Source of the DNA: a virus
Virus record (IMG/VR): IMGVR_UViG_3300027996_000129
Span: 1-28,550 of that record
Length of the DNA stretch: 28,550 bases
Reading direction: 5' to 3' (one strand)
The translations under genes were made by a program, and so were the position numbers. This document shows positions 10,394 to 18,405 of the stretch, one piece after another. The notes below the pieces were generated by a model. That model was given only the letters and a program-made list of their open reading frames with translations. It had not been told where the DNA came from and searched no databases. How positions within the stretch are numbered: the first letter of the stretch is position 1; every line of letters starts with the position of its first letter.

Positions 10394-11935
10394 TTAATAG
10401 TTATCGCTTTCTGTTTTGCATATATTATAAAAGTCTTCCATCTCGGGGAACGCTTCTAAGAAGTTTGTACCTCTACGGGCATCGTGTTCTTCGACAAATT
10501 TGTAGAACCGTGCTCGATTGAGGTCTTGGCCAACGCCCTGCGCCTTGGGGTAGTTGCCATGGTATGTGATCTTGTTGGATAGATCAGTGAAGATTCTTTT
10601 TAGTTTATCTGCTTCGTGCACATTGAAGCCAAGGTTGTCTGACCATCCTGAGTGTCCGAGGTTCTGGTACATGAATTCCACGGCTGGCAACAGGTATTCT
10701 TCCAGAAGTTCGGGTGTGGCGATATGAGCGTCAAGGAAGTGTGGTGCTCTAACATATGGGATATCGATACCCACTCTGTCGTATCCGGACCCGTTGACTT
10801 CTCGACGGATGTTCAGGGTTTCGGAGTTATCTGTATATTTGATGCCGGTGCGATCATACACACCTTCCATGTATGCGCTATGATTGTACTTCTTCTTCAG
10901 TTCCAGCACCCACATCAGCAATCGTTTGAATGATGTGATGCTCATGATGTTGAACGCTGCCATGATGGTTATTCTGGCACGTGGAACTTCATCAAGGAAC
11001 TCATGGAAGTTCGAACGGAATTGGTTGAAGTCCATACCAAATCTGTTGTACTCGGCTCGTGCTCCCCAATTCTCTATACTTGTGAACAATGTGAACTTCT
11101 TCACACATCCACGTTCAGTAAGTCTGAATATCTTGAGCTTGAACTCTTCCCATAGCTCGGGCGGTGGACACAAGTTTGTGTTGATCGCGAAGTCCAGTTC
11201 GGGATTGGGGTTCTCTAGGAGGAAGTCAATGGTTCTCATTGTATCTTTGCTGAGTAGTGGTTCGCCGCCAGTGATGCGAAGTACCTTCATGTGCTTGTAT
11301 GCTTCGGGGAACCATTCCCACCAAGCGTCTTTGTATGGGTTCTCTTGATTGTTTGGGATGTTTGTTTTATCTGGATCAAGGCCATTGAATTCGAAGCCAT
11401 CTGATGATAGTTTATACGGACCATGTTGATTGATCTCTTCGGTCCATGTTGAGCTATATTGAGGGCTACAGTACCCGCACTTGAAGTTACATACGTTAGA
11501 GAAGCTTACCTCTACATATGATGGGTACACGTCTTCATCGCCATCCAGTTTAATGATCTCATTGCGATTGTTGAAGCTGAATGAGTCCAATGATTTATGG
11601 TATCGATCACTGAGTTCATTGGCGTCTTCGATGCGCCAGCAATAGTCACACTCGTCTGGCTTCTTATCGTTCAGCATTAATTTACGTTGTTCTTTCTTGA
11701 ACTCTGTGTTATGTAATGCTGCAGGGTTTGCTTGAATTTCTTCCAGTGGTATTTTATGTGCTGCGGGGTGATGGCATGAATGAGTGTGTCCCGTACCTAG
11801 ATGCATGGTTACCTGTGTCCATTTGGCAAGACACATCCCACAACCTGTATCATTCAGGAAGTCTTTCATGGTAAGAACGTTATCTTCCTCGTGAAAGGGG
11901 TCTCCGTTTTCTTGTAGTCTAAATTGGTGTGACAT
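10394..11935 (-). CDS. Radical SAM protein with N-terminal cysteine module (twitch-like)
   Basis: A 513-residue protein. The radical SAM signature is NVCNFKCGYCS (C149, C153, C156), followed by ITGGEPLLS (GGEP 223-226), the SAM-binding GGE motif. Before it is a conserved Cys/His module: C32, C35, C54-H-H, C96, C99 (GCGMC, SCHHPAAHKIP, ECDYCW). The C-terminus ends with an FxKFVEEHDxRRGTNF stretch. Phage proteins of this layout are annotated as twitch-domain radical SAM proteins; the substrate is unknown. It is a tandem paralogue of the next upstream gene, overlapping it by 17 bases. Confidence 0.85.
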   Translation of the reverse strand: MSHQFRLQENGDPFHEEDNVLTMKDFLNDTGCGMCLAKWTQVTMHLGTGHTHSCHHPAAHKIPLEEIQANPAALHNTEFKKEQRKLMLNDKKPDECDYCWRIEDANELSDRYHKSLDSFSFNNRNEIIKLDGDEDVYPSYVEVSFSNVCNFKCGYCSPQYSSTWTEEINQHGPYKLSSDGFEFNGLDPDKTNIPNNQENPYKDAWWEWFPEAYKHMKVLRITGGEPLLSKDTMRTIDFLLENPNPELDFAINTNLCPPPELWEEFKLKIFRLTERGCVKKFTLFTSIENWGARAEYNRFGMDFNQFRSNFHEFLDEVPRARITIMAAFNIMSITSFKRLLMWVLELKKKYNHSAYMEGVYDRTGIKYTDNSETLNIRREVNGSGYDRVGIDIPYVRAPHFLDAHIATPELLEEYLLPAVEFMYQNLGHSGWSDNLGFNVHEADKLKRIFTDLSNKITYHGNYPKAQGVGQDLNRARFYKFVEEHDARRGTNFLEAFPEMEDFYNICKTESDNY

Positions 11936-13376
11936 GTGCTATATCTCCATCTCCCTGATCCCAATCATTATCGTGGTATCCTTGTTGTGGGTATGACCAC
12001 TGTATTAGTTTATCGTGTTCGGGAAACGTTGTTGCGAAATCAGTTCCTCTACGTTTGTCGTATTCTTTCACGAATGTGACTAGATCGGTTTGATCTCGTG
12101 CATTTGTCTCTGGACGATCTCTGAGGTATTCACATAGCCTATCGATCTGATCTTTTTCTTCCAGATAGAATCTGGCTTTATCAGTTGGGCTTGTGTCACG
12201 CATATGAGCATCAATGAATTCATTGATGTGGTGTATGAAGATATCTTTTATGTAATCTGTTGCTAGTTGTGCGTTCAGGAACGGTGGCCAGCGCAGATAT
12301 GAGATCATCATTGGGATACGGTTCATTGCGTCTGATTCGTTGTAGTATGATCTAAGGTTCCAGATATCTTTCAAGAAGTCTTGGAAGGTGCCTAGGCTCA
12401 ACACATTGAAGGTTATCATGAAGTTCACACGTGCTTCGGTGTTCGCTAGTACCCGATGAACGTTCTTCATGAATCGAGTGTAGTCCATACCATAGCGGAT
12501 ATACTCAGCGGCATCGCCCTTGGCTTCACATGATGTATATATTTCGAAGCTATTGATATGTGGTGCGATATCGTTATGATACTGGATCAGTTTATTAATG
12601 AACTCTTCGGGAACATCAAGGTTGGTATTGATGGCAAGATTGAAGTCTTCACGTGGGTTCTCTTTTATGTACTCAAGCACCTTCCATGTGTTTTTGCTTA
12701 GTAGTGGTTCGCCACCAGTGATACGGAATGTGTTCAGGTCTTGGTATAGGTCGGGCCACCATTCCCAAAAGGCATCCACGTACACGTTGTCTTCGCGGTT
12801 TGGTAGTGGCATTCTTCCTGAGTCTTGTAACCAAGTCAGGCTCCCTGTCAACCACGAGGTTGTGTATGGACCATGTTGTTTTATTTCTTCCATCCATTTG
12901 GATGACACTTCTGGTGAGCAGTACGCACATTTGAAGTTACATGTGTTTTCGAATGCGACTTCAAGATAGCTTGGGTTGATGTTACCTGTTGCTTTAGCTT
13001 CCATGATCTTATCGAGGTATGGCATGCTCCATTGTTCATCGGTTGACTTATAGGTACGATCACTGATATGGTCTCCCTTTAGGTCTTCGATGTTCCAGCA
13101 GTATTCGCATTCTGGTGGTCGTTCACCGTCGAGCATTAGCTGTCGTTGTTCTTTCTTGAACTTTGTGTTGTGTAGTGCGGTTGGATTATCCTTGAGTTCT
13201 TCTGGTGGAATTTTGTGTGCCACTGGATGGTGACATGAGTGGTTCATTCCGTTCATAAGATACAGGGTAGTTTGCAACCATTTAGCCGTGCACATAGTAC
13301 ATGATGATTGTTCTACCTTGTCCATGCGTGTTTGCATGTTCTCGATGTTCAATTGGTTCTGTGATTTTTCAGTCAT
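11919..13376 (-). CDS. Radical SAM protein, paralogue of its downstream neighbour
   Basis: A 485-residue protein starting MTEKSQNQ at 13376, chosen over 13391 because it makes the 8-base ATGACTGA overlap that recurs at the next junction. The 4Fe-4S motif is NTCNFKCAYCS (C146, C150, C153) and the SAM motif ITGGEPLLS (GGEP 221-224). The N-terminal module C26, C29, C48, C90, C93 has exactly the same spacing (3, 19, 42, 3) as the paralogue, and ALHNTxFKKEQR is shared. The C-terminal half is more diverged, so the pair may act on different substrates or as a heterodimer. Confidence 0.85.
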   Translation of the reverse strand: MTEKSQNQLNIENMQTRMDKVEQSSCTMCTAKWLQTTLYLMNGMNHSCHHPVAHKIPPEELKDNPTALHNTKFKKEQRQLMLDGERPPECEYCWNIEDLKGDHISDRTYKSTDEQWSMPYLDKIMEAKATGNINPSYLEVAFENTCNFKCAYCSPEVSSKWMEEIKQHGPYTTSWLTGSLTWLQDSGRMPLPNREDNVYVDAFWEWWPDLYQDLNTFRITGGEPLLSKNTWKVLEYIKENPREDFNLAINTNLDVPEEFINKLIQYHNDIAPHINSFEIYTSCEAKGDAAEYIRYGMDYTRFMKNVHRVLANTEARVNFMITFNVLSLGTFQDFLKDIWNLRSYYNESDAMNRIPMMISYLRWPPFLNAQLATDYIKDIFIHHINEFIDAHMRDTSPTDKARFYLEEKDQIDRLCEYLRDRPETNARDQTDLVTFVKEYDKRRGTDFATTFPEHDKLIQWSYPQQGYHDNDWDQGDGDIAHVTPI

Positions 13377-13816: not shown

Positions 13817-14775
13817 ATTACTGTACTGTCCTCGAACATTCTCTTGAGTTCCAATCCTGCTGCTTCTTGTTCTGTTACCATGATGCTGTACTTTGCCTTG
13901 TTGTCGAAGTGTACTGACTTGAACCACGCTGATTGTTGTTCATCGAGTTCAGCGACACGTAGCTGCATTAGATCATTGATCTCTTCATTAAGTCTGAGCA
14001 TGAATCTCTTGAGTGTGTGGGGGTCATTGAAGATAGCTCTATGCTGGTCCCATACTGTGTCGAAGTAATCGAACTCAGCTACGCTTGATGGTTCGAACTC
14101 TGGATCGAATGCTTTCACGGCACCCATCCTTGCTCCAATCATAGCGTAGTTACCGTGTAGGATATCTCGTCCCACTGAGCACCAGATGCTTAATCGTTCG
14201 AGGTTCGCTCTTGCATTCTTTTCATAGAACTTCCACTTGTCAACCTTATCGCCATTGTGTAGACTCATCTTCACGCCTTCGCGATACCCTGCGCGGAATG
14301 CTTGGAAGGGTGAGCCATTCACGTATACATCTGACCATATGCTTGCCATTTGTACGTACGTGGGCATCCAACAGAAGTCCACGCCGTTACCATCTTCGGC
14401 CAGTTCATGTGATGCCATGTTCAGGAGTTCATCGCGTGGCCATAGTTTCAGTCCACCGTTGCCATACGATAGACCATTGACCATGTTCAGACCTTTCCAA
14501 CTGTACACGTAATCGTGATGTAGTTCATCATCGATCATTACCTTTTGTAGCATGAACTCTGGATGGATGATGTTGTCTGCGTCTACTGTGATGATACGGT
14601 CGGTTGTTCCTGCTTCCCCTGCTGCTCTATGGGCTGCGTCGAATCCTTTGACATGGTGGACACGTTTAGCTGCTGGGTTTTTCTCTAGGAGATCGGCCCA
14701 ATGTTTCTCACAGTTTGGTTCATCGTATGAGATGTACACAACAGAAAAGTCCGATATATTGTACTCTTGCTTCAT
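13813..14775 (-). CDS. Phage glycosyltransferase, DAD type (GT-A-like)
   Basis: A 320-residue protein starting MKQEYNISDFSVVYISYDEP. KGFDAAHRAAG (43-53) and ITVDADNII (62-70, DxD 65-67) mark a GT-A-like donor site, and SYGNGGLKLWPRD, VNGSPFQAFRAGYREG and IWCSVGRD match the paralogue at 2183-3094. A C-terminal helical extension with an EEINDLMQLRVAELDEQQ stretch is not shared with the short paralogue at 3343. It couples by ATGA both upstream and downstream. Sugar and acceptor unknown. Confidence 0.74.
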   Translation of the reverse strand: MKQEYNISDFSVVYISYDEPNCEKHWADLLEKNPAAKRVHHVKGFDAAHRAAGEAGTTDRIITVDADNIIHPEFMLQKVMIDDELHHDYVYSWKGLNMVNGLSYGNGGLKLWPRDELLNMASHELAEDGNGVDFCWMPTYVQMASIWSDVYVNGSPFQAFRAGYREGVKMSLHNGDKVDKWKFYEKNARANLERLSIWCSVGRDILHGNYAMIGARMGAVKAFDPEFEPSSVAEFDYFDTVWDQHRAIFNDPHTLKRFMLRLNEEINDLMQLRVAELDEQQSAWFKSVHFDNKAKYSIMVTEQEAAGLELKRMFEDSTVI

Positions 14776-15341
14776 TTCCTTACCTCGAACGACGTTAGAT
14801 GTTTATCTATGTTACTGATCAATGTGATCTCCTGATTGACTCCTGCTGGAATCTCGTATAACTCTTTATTCATGACTACATCGCCGCCGATCCATTTCAA
14901 TGTGAGTAATGGTGGCTCATAGATATAGTTCCTTGGGACAACGAACACCCATACGACTGCATCTCTATTACCTGCACGTTTGTAGAAATCGTCCATGCCC
15001 TCAACGAGTACTTTGTTGCGGTTCTTCATGTATGTGAACTTCACCACGTAGTGTTCTCGTTGTTTGTCGATCACAGGTATCAGTGTTATGTTTTGTTTAT
15101 CGAACTTCCTTCTGAATGCTTTGTATTCGTCGGTGGTTGCCGCAACTAGTGTTGGCACATCATTGATTGAGATTACGCCGTAATTTTGTTGTGCTGCGAT
15201 AACGTCCCTGTATTCGTACTCCGTTGTTTCTAAAAATGGGATATCATTCAGGCTTTCATCTGGTTTGGATTCAGATGAGCATGCATGTATATCGCCCACT
15301 TGGTTATAGTATACCCTAAAAGTGTAGTCTTCGTCAAACAT
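14772..15341 (-). CDS. Hypothetical 189-residue protein
   Basis: A mostly beta-rich protein starting MFDEDYTFRVYYNQ, with a repeated run of aromatic and hydrophobic strands (VVWVFVVPRNYIYEPPLLTL) and an acidic N-terminal third containing ESKPDESLNDIP. No signal peptide, membrane helix or catalytic motif is evident. It starts inside the last 8 bases of the upstream small gene (ATGTTTGA) and ends in an ATGA overlap with the glycosyltransferase. I do not recognise the family. Confidence 0.7.
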   Translation of the reverse strand: MFDEDYTFRVYYNQVGDIHACSSESKPDESLNDIPFLETTEYEYRDVIAAQQNYGVISINDVPTLVAATTDEYKAFRRKFDKQNITLIPVIDKQREHYVVKFTYMKNRNKVLVEGMDDFYKRAGNRDAVVWVFVVPRNYIYEPPLLTLKWIGGDVVMNKELYEIPAGVNQEITLISNIDKHLTSFEVRK

Positions 15342-15561
15342 TTTTGTGCCTTACAATATAGAAATGGATTTCATTGGCCTGTGTGTACATATTATATTTC
15401 TCTTGTATATAGTCTTGTGCTTCGCGCTTGAACCGAAAAGACTTAACTTTGTAAGTATAGGGTCGGCCATTCTGCGAAGATACTATTCCCCACGTGGGGT
15501 CTGCTGGCTTCCGGGCGGGCCGCTTATCGTGATATCTGATGATGTACTTACCTTCTCGCAT
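15334..15561 (-). CDS. GKY-FRFKR family small protein, last in the array
   Basis: A 75-residue basic protein: N-terminus MREGKYIIRYHDKRP, centre SFRFKREAQDYIQEKY, end IHFYIVRHKNV. The first two blocks match the family; the usual EKxPxxxR end has diverged. It starts within the last 14 bases of the upstream paralogue. Function unknown. Confidence 0.78.
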   Translation of the reverse strand: MREGKYIIRYHDKRPARKPADPTWGIVSSQNGRPYTYKVKSFRFKREAQDYIQEKYNMYTQANEIHFYIVRHKNV

Positions 15562-15751
15562 GTGGTAACTTCTCTATGTATGCGACATTGTGTGGCGGGG
15601 GAGACTTTCTTCTGTTGATGTTACGTGCGTAATTCTCTGCTGGTCTCTTGAATCTAAAGTGGCCATGATATATCCACACACGTTCAGGCTCAAAGGTATG
15701 CGGATTGATCTGATGGCTCAAGATTTTGATGATGTACTTACCTTTTTTCAT
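15548..15751 (-). CDS. GKY-FRFKR family small protein
   Basis: A 67-residue protein starting MKKGKYIIKIL, with the central GHFRFKRPAENYARN and the end YIEKLPHARR. Its last four codons and stop share 14 bases with the start of the next gene: ...CATGCGAGAAGGTAA reads P-H-A-R-R-stop in one frame and M-R-E-G-K in the other. The pattern M[RK]xGKY, short beta strand, FRFKRxA helix, final FYIEK strand suggests a small alpha-beta domain. No match to a known family that I can name. Confidence 0.8.
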   Translation of the reverse strand: MKKGKYIIKILSHQINPHTFEPERVWIYHGHFRFKRPAENYARNINRRKSPPPHNVAYIEKLPHARR

Positions 15752-15965
15752 GAGGCATCTTTTCTATATAAAATTCGTATCCATCAAATACCGGAAATCC
15801 CACGCTTGCTAACAGGTGATCCAATTGGTTACGTGCATCGATAGCCAAGCGAAATCGGAAACAGCCGGGGCCATTTTTGTAGCCACCATAGTAACCCCAT
15901 TCGGATGGGTCTTCTCCGTGGTCTGGTGCTCTTCGGAATTTGATCACGTATCTACCTTTTCGCAT
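15738..15965 (-). CDS. GKY-FRFKR family small protein
   Basis: A 75-residue protein with MRKGRYVIKFRRAP, a longer Gly/Tyr-rich insert (EWGYYGGYKNGPG), CFRFRLAIDARNQ and the end YEFYIEKMPHEKR. I chose the start at 15965 because it restores the family N-terminus and gives the standard 14-base overlap; the frame from 15983 adds six unrelated residues. Its own end again overlaps the next start by 14 bases. Confidence 0.8.
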   Translation of the reverse strand: MRKGRYVIKFRRAPDHGEDPSEWGYYGGYKNGPGCFRFRLAIDARNQLDHLLASVGFPVFDGYEFYIEKMPHEKR

Positions 15966-16137
15966 AAGGCACCTTCTCCACATAAAACTTGTGATGGCCC
16001 TTACGTATCATACAATGTTGGCGTCTTTCTCTGGCATCAATTTCAGCATCACGTTTAAATCTGTACGTGGCAGAAAGAACATACCATTTAGTAGGATCAC
16101 TGTTGTGATACTTTATACACCACTTTGGTCTTCTCAT
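15952..16137 (-). CDS. GKY-FRFKR family small protein
   Basis: A 61-residue protein: MRRPKWCIKYHNSD, then SATYRFKRDAEIDARER and the end HKFYVEKVPYAKR. It starts in an ATGA overlap with the upstream paralogue (which ends KGKLGL) and ends in the 14-base overlap typical of this array. The YRFKRDA helix is the best conserved part, with basic residues on one face. Confidence 0.8.
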   Translation of the reverse strand: MRRPKWCIKYHNSDPTKWYVLSATYRFKRDAEIDARERRQHCMIRKGHHKFYVEKVPYAKR

Positions 16138-16352
16138 AATCCCAACTTCCCTTTACAATCTACCACAAAATATACCGTGTCCGCGTGTGAATAATCCTTC
16201 AATGCCCGAGTAGCATCTCGTTTGAATCGAAAGCTTGCGCCAGATATGACATAATAATCGTGCAAGACTGGATATGTCCATGTTCCCTGATCACTGTCCA
16301 CTGTTTTCATTTTAACCGTTAGGAATGCTATGTGATATCGCGGGGGTCTCAT
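16134..16352 (-). CDS. GKY-FRFKR family small protein, first in the array
   Basis: A 72-residue protein: MRPPRYHIAFLTVK, centre SFRFKRDATRALKDY, final strand VYFVVDCKGKLGL. The last residues KLGL and the following ATGAGA copy the end of the glycosyltransferase gene just upstream (AKLGL, then ATGAGA), so the junction seems to have been duplicated together with the gene. Its start overlaps that gene as ATGA. Function unknown. Confidence 0.78.
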   Translation of the reverse strand: MRPPRYHIAFLTVKMKTVDSDQGTWTYPVLHDYYVISGASFRFKRDATRALKDYSHADTVYFVVDCKGKLGL

Positions 16353-17227
16353 AACCCTAGCTTTGCCTCGTACTGCTCAATGATCTCATCTGTCAACCAA
16401 TCCTTCACATGATAATGGAATGGTCGGCTGATGTAATAGTTGTTTACGAACAGTTCACAGTTATCATTCATTCTGTTGTCTAGCCATAAGTCCCAATCAT
16501 CATCAAAATGGGTATTGGGTTCTGGCATCAGTTGTGCTAACATCTTCATGTGAACGAAGTTGAAGCCTTCAATGCATGGCTTGTACTCACGCTTCTTATC
16601 GAGTAGTCTGACTGCTAGGCCGTATGCTACATCGGTGCTGAACTCTTGCTGTCTGTATTTGCGGAGGAATTCATAGCTGTATTCTGACCAATTGTCTGCG
16701 ATCTCTTTGATAAGTTCAAAGAACTTCCAAGACTCATCGCCTTGTTTAAAGTAGGACATCGCACTGTATGCATTATACAAGTTGTTGTTCACGAATGTTT
16801 TGCGATAGAATGTCATGTCTGCCACTTGGTCTTGGAATGTTCGTACGTTGTCACAGATAGCCACGTCTTGGCGGTCTGCGATATGATCGATCAATGGCTC
16901 CATTTCATCGAAGTACAGCATGTCTGCTTCTGTCTTGATTGTTTCCTCGTATGGTGTAAGGTGCATGGATTTCCATTCGTTACGGAGTTTCCATTCACGA
17001 TCCCAATCATCATCACCCCATGGGTTTTGGATGACGTTATCGAATACCTTTTTGTACTTCTCAGGCATGTCATCTGGATCGGTGACCACGACACTGAGGT
17101 ATGGAGTTTCTTGTTGAGACAACCGTAGACTTAATGCGAGACCGTATGCTAGTCTCACGTAATCTTGTTTCTCGTTATTGATTGCGAAGGTTAAGTATCC
17201 GCGCTTACGTTTGTTTAAAGTAGACAT
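16349..17227 (-). CDS. Putative glycosyltransferase, GT8-like
   Basis: A 292-residue protein. The N-terminal strand YLTFAINNEKQDYVRLAYGL resembles the start of glycogenin/GT8-type enzymes. YLSVVVTDPDD (43-53) follows, then a helical stretch and KTEADMLYFDEM (98-109), in which the acidic triad E-A-D sits where GT8 enzymes have DxD. The C-terminal part is rich in aromatic and acidic residues with FNFVHMK. It shares the overall scheme with the protein at 18398-19207. The missing first Asp of DxD leaves activity uncertain. It starts inside the MGK gene at 17205-17375 and ends in an ATGA overlap. Confidence 0.62.
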   Translation of the reverse strand: MSTLNKRKRGYLTFAINNEKQDYVRLAYGLALSLRLSQQETPYLSVVVTDPDDMPEKYKKVFDNVIQNPWGDDDWDREWKLRNEWKSMHLTPYEETIKTEADMLYFDEMEPLIDHIADRQDVAICDNVRTFQDQVADMTFYRKTFVNNNLYNAYSAMSYFKQGDESWKFFELIKEIADNWSEYSYEFLRKYRQQEFSTDVAYGLAVRLLDKKREYKPCIEGFNFVHMKMLAQLMPEPNTHFDDDWDLWLDNRMNDNCELFVNNYYISRPFHYHVKDWLTDEIIEQYEAKLGL

Positions 17228-17375
17228 GTTTTCCTCTATGTTTCACCGATTCGTGATAGGTGATTTTGCCACTCCCTCTTCCGAATATGGTGAATGATTT
17301 CACTGGCCCAAGTCCAGAACGACGTTTCAGCATGTGTCGTTCTTGCCTTGCGTTATCTTTTAGTTGCTTACCCAT
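17205..17375 (-). CDS. MGKxxKDKxR-leader small protein
   Basis: A 56-residue protein beginning MGKQLKDNARQERHMLKRRS and ending VYFKQT. It is below normal length cut-offs. Its N-terminus matches the other four MGK proteins; the body, Gly/Ser-rich with SFTIFGRGSGKIT, matches none of them. Its ATG lies within the 8-base overlap ATGGGTAA at the end of the upstream gene, and its 3' end overlaps the glycosyltransferase start by 23 bases. Function unknown. Confidence 0.7.
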   Translation of the reverse strand: MGKQLKDNARQERHMLKRRSGLGPVKSFTIFGRGSGKITYHESVKHRGKHVYFKQT

Positions 17376-17613
17376 CTTTCACTATCCTGAAGCTTGGGGG
17401 ATCAGTTAGGTTTCCGGACCTCATTACGTCTGGTGTTGATTGTTCCTCAATAAATTTCCGTGCATCATATCTGGTTCTGAATCTAGGTTCTTGTTTGGTT
17501 ATCTTGACAAGTGGTGACTTGCCCTTGCGGTATGTGAGCCTTAAAGAATGATACATCAGTCCTTTGGTACTGGTTGTGTCCTTATCGATCACTAGATATT
17601 TGCCCGGTTTCAT
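17368..17613 (-). CDS. GKY-family small protein among the MGK genes
   Basis: An 81-residue protein with the GKY start MKPGKYLVIDKDT, a variable basic middle, RFRTRYDARKFIEE (family helix) and a final strand SFRIVKDG. It sits between two MGK-leader genes, linked by ATGA upstream and ATGGGTAA downstream, so members of the two small-gene families are interleaved. The longer middle segment (a basic loop with RKGKSPLVK) sets it apart from the tight array at 15334-16352. Confidence 0.75.
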   Translation of the reverse strand: MKPGKYLVIDKDTTSTKGLMYHSLRLTYRKGKSPLVKITKQEPRFRTRYDARKFIEEQSTPDVMRSGNLTDPPSFRIVKDG

Positions 17614-17858
17614 CTTGATATCTTCTTGGGTTTAGTCGAACGATCAACAGTCGCTGATGTGTTAATCCACACGGAAGCTGTTAGATTTCTGGTGTTGCCC
17701 CACGAGTACCCCCGTGGGCGGCGATTGAGGTATGATTTATTCGACGTGTAATTCGTGAAGTATTTCTTCCATCCACCGGGCTTTCTTGTCTTCTTCTCTG
17801 TCATGTTCCATTTTTGATTTCTTTGTTGGCGACGTTTATCTATTCTATGTTTCCCCAT
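17610..17858 (-). CDS. MGKxxKDKxR-leader small protein
   Basis: An 82-residue, very basic protein: MGKHRIDKRRQQRNQKW, then a K/R/G-rich part and a Ser/Thr-rich end (TASVWINTSATVDRSTKPKK). The leader is diverged (RIDKRR for KKDKAR). Its ATG lies within the last 14 bases of the preceding gene, whose stop codon is read from the leader's own codons. No domain recognised. Confidence 0.75.
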   Translation of the reverse strand: MGKHRIDKRRQQRNQKWNMTEKKTRKPGGWKKYFTNYTSNKSYLNRRPRGYSWGNTRNLTASVWINTSATVDRSTKPKKISR

Positions 17859-18099
17859 TGATCGTCACCTTTCCGTACCGAGTATTGAATGTGTTTGGCG
17901 GTTGTTTAGAACCACGTGACATTTTCATCTGTAAGGGAACATACGGCGCATAGAAGAATGCGGCGTCCTTCGCATTCCCACCAGCGTATTCCGTTTTCAG
18001 TGCATTGATACGTGTCCAGACCTGTGGGTTATCACAATATCTCTTGTAGGCGTCGTAGAACCCACGTTGTCTTGCCTTATCTTTTTTTGCTTTTCCCAT
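17845..18099 (-). CDS. MGKxxKDKxR-leader small protein
   Basis: An 84-residue protein: MGKAKKDKARQRGFYDAYKR leader, then CDNPQVWTRINALKTEYAGG and a C-terminal part with AFFYAPYVPLQMK. The body is unrelated to the other leader-bearing genes. It starts within the last 23 bases of the preceding gene, where the leader bases ATGGGAAAAGC also encode that gene's NGKSKKR end. Function unknown. Confidence 0.75.
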   Translation of the reverse strand: MGKAKKDKARQRGFYDAYKRYCDNPQVWTRINALKTEYAGGNAKDAAFFYAPYVPLQMKMSRGSKQPPNTFNTRYGKVTINGET

Positions 18100-18259
18100 T
18101 GCTGTCCTTGATAATGTATGTCCCGTTAGCCGTGGAATGTAGTTTGTAGGTGGTGGGCGGGTTGCCGGTGGATATCCAATCTCCCGACATTATCGGATTA
18201 CGTTGGCAGGATTTGTTGTATCGTTTTCGTCTCGCTTTATCTTTTTGTTGTTTTCCCAT
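18077..18259 (-). CDS. MGKxxKDKxR-leader small protein
   Basis: A 60-residue protein starting MGKQQKDKARRKRYNKSC at 18259; a frame from 18304 only adds a low-complexity ARAQGARAQGA stretch read from the neighbour's repeat and is rejected. The second half (GNPPTTYKLHSTANGTYIIK) looks like a beta-hairpin. Seventy bases overlap the preceding MGK gene in another frame, the longest overlap in the array, and the repeat-encoded helix of that gene runs into this leader. Confidence 0.72.
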   Translation of the reverse strand: MGKQQKDKARRKRYNKSCQRNPIMSGDWISTGNPPTTYKLHSTANGTYIIKDSNGKSKKR

Positions 18260-18405
18260 TGTATTTGCTCCTTGCGCTCTTGCTCCTTGCGCTCTTGCTC
18301 CCACATCCTATCGTTTTCAATTATCTCTTCATAAGTTAACCCTAATTGGTTGGGTCTATTTTTAAATCTGCGGTGCCTTGATTTATCTTTCTGATGCTTA
18401 CCCAT
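18190..18405 (-). CDS. MGKxxKDKxR-leader small protein with EQERK repeats
   Basis: A 71-residue highly charged protein: MGKHQKDKSRHRRFKNRPNQ, an acidic helix TYEEIIENDRMW, then the repeat EQERKEQERKEQ and a basic end. It starts at 18405, eight bases inside the end of the glycosyltransferase gene (ATGGGTAA). The EQERK repeat comes from a 15-base tandem duplication. Its tail after the repeat is an out-of-frame reading of the next gene's leader, suggesting extension into that gene by loss of an earlier stop. Confidence 0.72.
   Translation of the reverse strand: MGKHQKDKSRHRRFKNRPNQLGLTYEEIIENDRMWEQERKEQERKEQIQWENNKKIKRDENDTTNPANVIR
18265..18300 (-). repeat. 15-bp tandem repeat (about 2.4 copies)
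   Basis: Two perfect 15-base units (18271-18285 and 18286-18300) and a 6-base partial copy encode EQERK repeats in the MGK gene. The unit length is a multiple of three, so copy-number change keeps the frame. Confidence 0.9.

Follow-up and report, generated by a model that had tools for sequence, protein, structure and literature searches.

Stop/start overlaps as candidate recombination joints in the small-gene arrays of a phage

The 28,550-base virus record IMGVR_UViG_3300027996_000129 (positions 1–28,550, hereafter the window) carries its genes mainly on the minus strand, and among them are six small paralogues that we refer to as the GKY family. Five of these, A1 to A5, stand in a row between two larger genes (16352–15334), while the sixth, a0, lies separately at 17613–17368. 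The six proteins align end to end, share a central [FY]-R-[FT]-[KR] block and have calculated isoelectric points of 9.2 to 10.8. An adjoining second array, termed MGK, comprises five genes between 18405 and 17205 that start with a common leader (consensus MGKHQKDKARQRR). On balance, and from sequence comparison, we favour the view that these are tandemly duplicated genes and that the coding junction between them is at the same time a joint for recombination, a behaviour that can be seen once in the MGK array and that we infer for the GKY genes.

The initial annotation had described three GKY junctions at which one gene stops and the next starts in the same bases, and all three are present on the minus strand where it placed them. 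Each is a 14-base overlap with the downstream gene in the +1 frame, read as P-[HY]-x-x-R-stop in one frame and as M-[RK]-x-G-[KR] in the other (Table 1). The A3 start was set at 15965, where it lines up with the heads of A4 and A5; a second in-frame ATG lies upstream at 15983. Five further GKY junctions are without these motifs and overlap by 4 bases (17613–17610, 16352–16349 and 16137–16134) or by 8 (17375–17368 and 15341–15334). Overlap as such is common in this phage, occurring in 29 of the 39 neighbouring pairs formed by 40 minus-strand genes, with lengths of 4 nucleotides (nt) in ten pairs, 8 nt in six, 14 nt in four, 23 nt and 1 nt in two each, and 17, 22, 68, 70 and 94 nt in one each. 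This gene list was made by hand with starts of our own choosing; the starts behind the 68- and 94-nt overlaps may be wrong, and one entry, 987–788, is not open in the window, so that its two junctions are not firm. The fourth 14-nt overlap belongs to the unrelated MGK family (17858/17845).

The length of the overlap is of a known kind. In a survey of prokaryotic overlaps, phase-1 overlaps (−8, −11, −14) are several-fold commoner than phase-2 overlaps, and long overlaps are overall rarer than those of −4, −1 and −8 (PMC10666635). It is the repetition of the overlap between paralogues that needs explaining. The likeness among the three junctions exceeds chance, yet it does so as homology, the genes being paralogues. 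Plain old tandem duplication, in which the junctions were inherited by descent and the overlaps reflect the usual compression of phage operons rather than a joint, is a possibility to be reckoned with, albeit one we hold doubtful. It can draw on the clear paralogy, on the prevalence of overlaps among the 39 pairs and on the higher frequency of phase-1 overlaps such as −14 over phase-2 in the same survey (PMC10666635), but it has to face the codon and haplotype data set out below.

Tail and head motifs occur together. A2, A3 and A4 (3/3) end in P-[HY]-x-x-R, and in each case the next gene has a GKY head that carries GGTAR in codons 4–5, while A1, A5 and a0 (0/3) have neither the tail nor a following GGTAR head, a 3–3 split that would arise by chance once in 20 among six genes. 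Within the common bases head and tail constrain each other, as the initial annotation had supposed: the [HY] codon must be NAT, and all three tails use AGG for the Arg that precedes the stop, although AGG has a 5% share among the Arg codons of 12 larger genes. The head Gly codon is GGT where a stop is needed and GGC in a0, where there is no +1 stop. A further suggestion, that the tail is conserved partly because it encodes the next start, does not hold for E-K-x-P. This segment lies outside the overlap and its residues are kept through synonymous changes (GAG/GAA, CCT/CCA), so that the start of the next gene does not explain it. The E-K pair was also considered as a Shine-Dalgarno site and dropped, as energies at the three junctions (−7.1, +0.2 and −2.9 kcal/mol, calculated with an assumed anti-Shine-Dalgarno sequence that may not be that of the host) were not better than those of shuffles (p = 0.28, 0.80 and 0.31). 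In coupled gene pairs such a motif within the first gene is frequent but dispensable. The rare AGG before the stop in 3/3 junctions and the +1 frame of the downstream gene could alternatively point to AGG-TAR being a +1 frameshift site that fuses adjacent GKY proteins. We regard this as highly improbable, since an overlap with GGT already forces NGG and a separate ATG stands there for every downstream gene.

Table 1. Coordinates of the GKY and MGK genes, their 14-base junctions and the haplotype switch. Protein lengths in amino acids (aa).
Feature	Coordinates	Strand	Description
A1	16134..16352	-	72 aa; head MRPPRY, tail CKGKLGL; 4-nt overlap at each end; profile match in sister contig
A2	15952..16137	-	61 aa; head MRRPKW, tail EKVPYAKR
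A3	15738..15965	-	75 aa; head MRKGRY, tail EKMPHEKR
A4	15548..15751	-	67 aa; head MKKGKY, tail EKLPHARR
A5	15334..15561	-	75 aa; head MREGKY, tail RHKNV (without tail motif); unrelated gene next
a0	17368..17613	-	outlying GKY gene, 81 aa; head MKPGKY, tail RIVKDG
Gene after A5	14772..15341	-	unrelated, 189 aa; 8-nt overlap with A5
Overlap A2/A3	15965-15952	-	ATGCGAAAAGGTAG = ...PYAKR-stop / MRKGR
Overlap A3/A4	15751-15738	-	ATGAAAAAAGGTAA = ...PHEKR-stop / MKKGK
Overlap A4/A5	15561-15548	-	ATGCGAGAAGGTAA = ...PHARR-stop / MREGK
MGK-leader gene	18190..18405	-	MGKHQKDKSRHRR...; 8-nt overlap with preceding gene
MGK-leader gene	18077..18259	-	MGKQQKDKARRKR...; 70-nt overlap with preceding gene; tail NGKSKKR-stop
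MGK-leader gene	17845..18099	-	body like C-terminal part of Gp23; one more gene here in sister contig
MGK-leader gene	17610..17858	-	MGKHRIDKRRQQR...; 14-nt overlap with preceding gene
MGK-leader gene	17205..17375	-	MGKQLKDNARQER...; 8-nt overlap with a0
Haplotype switch stretch	18067..18075	-	GCAAGACAA, 9 nt; X versus Y_A and Y_B

Codon choice separates the junction heads from the bodies of the genes. Wherever two of A3–A5 have the same residue within their first ten codons they also use the identical codon (14/14 pairs; 6.0 expected from codon usage), compared with 25 of 71 same-residue pairs in the bodies of A2–A5 (32.8 expected). Tail pairs among A2–A4 agree in 12 of 16 cases (7.4 expected), whereas the figures fall to 3/10 for head pairs with A2, which starts without a 14-nt junction, and to 0/4 for tail pairs with A5. 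The identity reaches beyond the overlap itself, as codons 6–9 of the A3–A5 heads, which lie outside it, are identical in 8/8 pairs. Column permutation of the A3–A5 heads against the rest gave p = 0.004; the codon pairs are not independent of one another. At silent sites the bodies thus look randomised and the junction heads do not, a pattern that exchange at the junction would explain and that age alone would not, since plain old duplication should have eroded heads and bodies alike. Selection on the start region could also account for the excess. In such a scenario the heads would be alike through nucleotide-level selection on the initiation region (an unfolded, A-rich start or coupling signals) rather than through exchange, and the peak of identity in the first nine codons speaks for it. 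However, the heads of A1, A2 and a0 share little identity in spite of belonging to the same operon, and the Shine-Dalgarno signal does not rise above shuffles, so that we consider this explanation improbable.

In the MGK array, one gain or loss of a gene falls exactly at the leader. M1, G2, K3, D7 and R10 are invariant in the six leaders aligned, and the leader DNA holds +1-frame stops (GGTAA, CATAG or GATAA). Window genes that precede MGK leaders end inside them, with overlaps of 8, 23, 14 and 8 bases, and one extends 70. This longest overlap is that of the gene at 18405–18190, which reads into its neighbour in another frame, the next leader forming its tail (WENNKKIKRDEN...). A sister contig, IMGVR_UViG_3300023210_000034, is 99.76% identical to the window over 11,325 nt and carries one extra MGK gene. 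The window form (X) follows the first copy of the sister (Y_A) up to GCAAGACAA and the second copy (Y_B) thereafter; the window gene at 18099 consists of the leader of the first sister gene and the body of the second, and the upstream stop, the downstream start and the reading frame are all intact across the switch. The gene before X ends NGKSKKR-stop in the leader, both in the window and in a contig from the same sample as the sister (IMGVR_UViG_3300023210_000048; 99.97% identity to the window over 3,806 nt), and the terminal HGKTSKR of the sister's extra gene lies in the leader that follows. The short form is thereby seen twice and the long form once. As the longest in-register exact run common to the two leaders is ten bases, a false join by the assembler appears unlikely. 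The seamless joining of an added copy, which the initial annotation had put forward for the GKY genes, is seen directly here but not among the GKY genes themselves. A switch exactly at the leader also counts against plain old duplication. In-frame tandem repeats, with units that are multiples of three, are found at two MGK junctions (15 nt × 2.5 at window 18301–18265 and 21 nt × 2 at sister L003:270–312), at or just before the leader starts and in the tail of the preceding gene.

The leader precedes pieces that resemble parts of another gene, as judged by matches to Gp23, the major capsid protein. In the MGK gene at 18099–17845 the body matches the end of the Gp23 profile (PF07068) at 28.9 bits, above the cut-off of 24.4 although as a fragment only, and its counterpart in the sister does so at 30.2 bits against the same cut-off. 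The sister's extra gene resembles the start of Gp23, with 17.0 bits to PF07068 and so below 24.4. When compared with the Gp23 of contig _000048, the two sister genes show 34% identity over 67 residues and, for the extra gene, 40% over 40. These diverged Gp23-like pieces, in two adjacent genes (sister L003:72–329 and L003:307–561), stand in the order of the capsid gene, and the C-terminal piece is present in both haplotypes. The small Gp23-like proteins may serve as decoys or modulate assembly, or they may be relics.

We propose the following account of how such arrays may work. In the GKY array a tailed phage would encode small, basic accessory proteins, paralogues of one another, in a tightly overlapping operon, which is probably translationally coupled. 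The repeat unit of A2–A5 would span the junction. To the upstream gene it would contribute the stop and the four codons before it, the outermost only in part, and to the downstream gene the ATG and the opening codons. As the downstream head carries the +1-frame stop of the upstream gene (GGT-A[AG]), a single stretch of DNA may serve as both stop and start, and because this stretch is repeated, recombination between two junction copies could add, remove or swap a gene with both frames intact. The MGK array may follow the same principle with another leader (ATGGGN...GATAA). While the overlaps, the co-occurrence of tail and head, the excess of head codon identity and the gene gain or loss at the MGK leader are observed, the origin of the GKY copies by exchange at the junction and any selective advantage are inferred. 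In a wider version, which we offer more tentatively and consider rather unlikely, such junctions would be 'gene sockets', short repeated coding modules that end one gene and start the next, into which recombination plugs bodies or from which it removes or swaps them, with the arrays making chimeric small proteins such as capsid pieces behind a basic leader.

Several observations weigh against recombination at the junction. No GKY copy-number variant occurs in the records found, and the GKY DNA of the sister is identical to that of the window. Half of the GKY genes (3/6) are without the tail, and the link between tail and head is partly one of construction, as an overlap of 14 bases imposes NAT and NGG-stop on the tail; it leaves free the Pro, the use of Arg and the E-K that comes earlier. 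The codon identity of the heads could, as discussed above, reflect selection on the initiation region. Shine-Dalgarno support for coupling is weak, and a distance of −14 falls outside the reinitiation window of −8 to +6, which slightly lowers our confidence and leads us to no more than propose coupling at the three junctions. MGK leaders vary at silent sites (GGT/GGA/GGG, AAA/AAG) and so have not been homogenised there, suggesting that their conservation acts at the protein level. Finally, the long MGK form rests on one contig, whose start lies at this place, and 14 further mismatches between X and Y cluster at 18023–17712, followed by none until 12786; given this cluster, either the long form comes from another strain, or the contig is a mosaic or a strain-switched assembly.

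Searches for relatives led back to the sister contig. The GKY head pattern retrieved 9 stretches from viral contigs, of which the 1 confirmed is the sister, and the DNA pattern of the junction matched in the sister contig only. A GKY profile recovered all six genes in the sister and none in 40 related viral records (0/40), many of which are fragments and which include no positive control; these 40 encode relatives of a 513-aa protein at 11935–10394 (putatively of radical-SAM type). Annotated phages gave no DNA match for 14772–17227 and no tblastn match to A2, the only GKY protein tried, and in one scan of bacterial genome contigs 16 stretches came up with 0 confirmed. A scan of neighbouring genes for similar heads examined 2,654 pairs and gave 6 hits, each of which lies in the window or in the sister. 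With a spacing of at most 2.5 kb, a scan for repeated heads gave 9 hits in the phage, 5 of them overlapping pairs, and 99 hits with 0 overlapping pairs in 40 related stretches, some of which are near-duplicates; by eye, most of these 99 seem to come from repetitive genes read out of frame. The 189-aa gene after A5 has, in viral contigs, the sister's copy as its sole relative.

At the protein level, no GKY protein scored over the cut-off in Pfam (A1 has a sub-threshold match to DUF5004), and none matched in PADLOC or among PDB sequences. PHROGs gave weak hits only, the best being phrog_10284 for A5 (E = 0.0025). An AlphaFold2 model of A3, built from four rows, has a pLDDT (predicted local distance difference test) score of 72.8, and Foldseek returned nothing for it at E ≤ 0.001. 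In a second comparison the top match was chain A of 8g9s (Z 6.9 over 65 residues, root-mean-square deviation 2.6; next row 4.6), on which we do not build, as the tool itself notes that unrelated folds commonly score Z below 8. The title of that entry concerns type I-C CRISPR-Cas3, and chain A is reportedly an anti-CRISPR. That no convincing database family was found, nor relatives outside the phage, might suggest that not all of the frames are genes and that the overlap is an accident of open reading frame calling. This we hardly credit, given that codon divergence among A2–A5 has left residues in place, as is typical of proteins under selection.

The phage itself is probably T4-like. Its largest window protein has weak matches in 472 phage records, cyanophages mostly, the best rows reaching 37% identity over 19% of its length, and a major capsid gene of Gp23 type (321 bits) is present on a contig that ends in the same MGK array. 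In one sample the assembly breaks at the MGK array, where contigs _000048 (at its end) and _000034 (at its start) share an identical stretch of 104 nt, as would be expected where two strains differ. Elsewhere in the window, two adjacent genes at 13376–10394 are alike in DNA (73–77% over 81–160 nt), probably through an old duplication; their cysteine motifs suggest that both are of radical-SAM type. A third small-gene array (the B-family, 1280–364) has 4-nt overlaps and includes three paralogues (the KKLSYRE family), and relatives of it were found in the sister contig only. The gene at about 987–788 differs from its sister version in the start codon and by one base in the length of an A run, and is therefore not open from that start in the window.

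If a coding stop/start repeat does act as a joint, it would be a simple mechanism by which phages make and shuffle small orphan genes without breaking their operons. The MGK haplotype pair places one such breakpoint to within nine bases, and any gene-dense phage could serve to examine the idea, through whether its copy-number breakpoints coincide with shared starts.

The design has parallels in several known systems. Overlapping co-directional pairs can be coupled by termination-reinitiation (PMC6728339, PMC10666635), and a distance of −8 to +6 nt is taken as indicative of this (PMC10666635). The GKY genes resemble these pairs in being co-directional with overlapping stop and start codons that share bases, and phase-1 overlaps (−8, −11, −14) are a class recognised in that literature; at −14, however, they lie beyond the −8 to +6 nt distance (PMC10666635). 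They differ further in repeating one overlap between paralogues and in having the junction conserved as DNA. The notion that the array design is undescribed fails for overlap as such, which is a described design; as to the array, in open-licence literature we found no description of tandem phage paralogues with overlapping starts, an absence that is not proof.

Start-Associated Sequences (SAS, with the related ESAS) of Cluster K mycobacteriophages are a 13-bp motif, GGGATAGGAGCCC, immediately upstream of starts and, like the repeats here, mark the starts of numerous phage genes that belong to different families (PMC3203893). Unlike SAS, the repeat here is part of the coding sequence in both frames, and at one such repeat a gene has been gained or lost. 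By eye, no SAS-like motif precedes the six GKY starts; the repeat begins at the ATG or in the tail. PeSLs are reportedly mobile regulatory cassettes of T4-type phages (Arbiol et al. 2010, Comeau et al. 2014), with an early promoter and a stem-loop between genes. Such promoter/terminator elements are said to sit between genes, whereas the joint proposed here is coding sequence, in genes whose overlap leaves no gap. The ORFanage deletion of cyanophage S-PM2 illustrates that marine T4-like phages lose their orphan-gene regions in blocks and probably acquire them in the same way (PMC4503421). There a block of many genes is concerned and mispackaging is the explanation given (PMC4503421), whereas in the MGK array a single gene is switched at a common leader.

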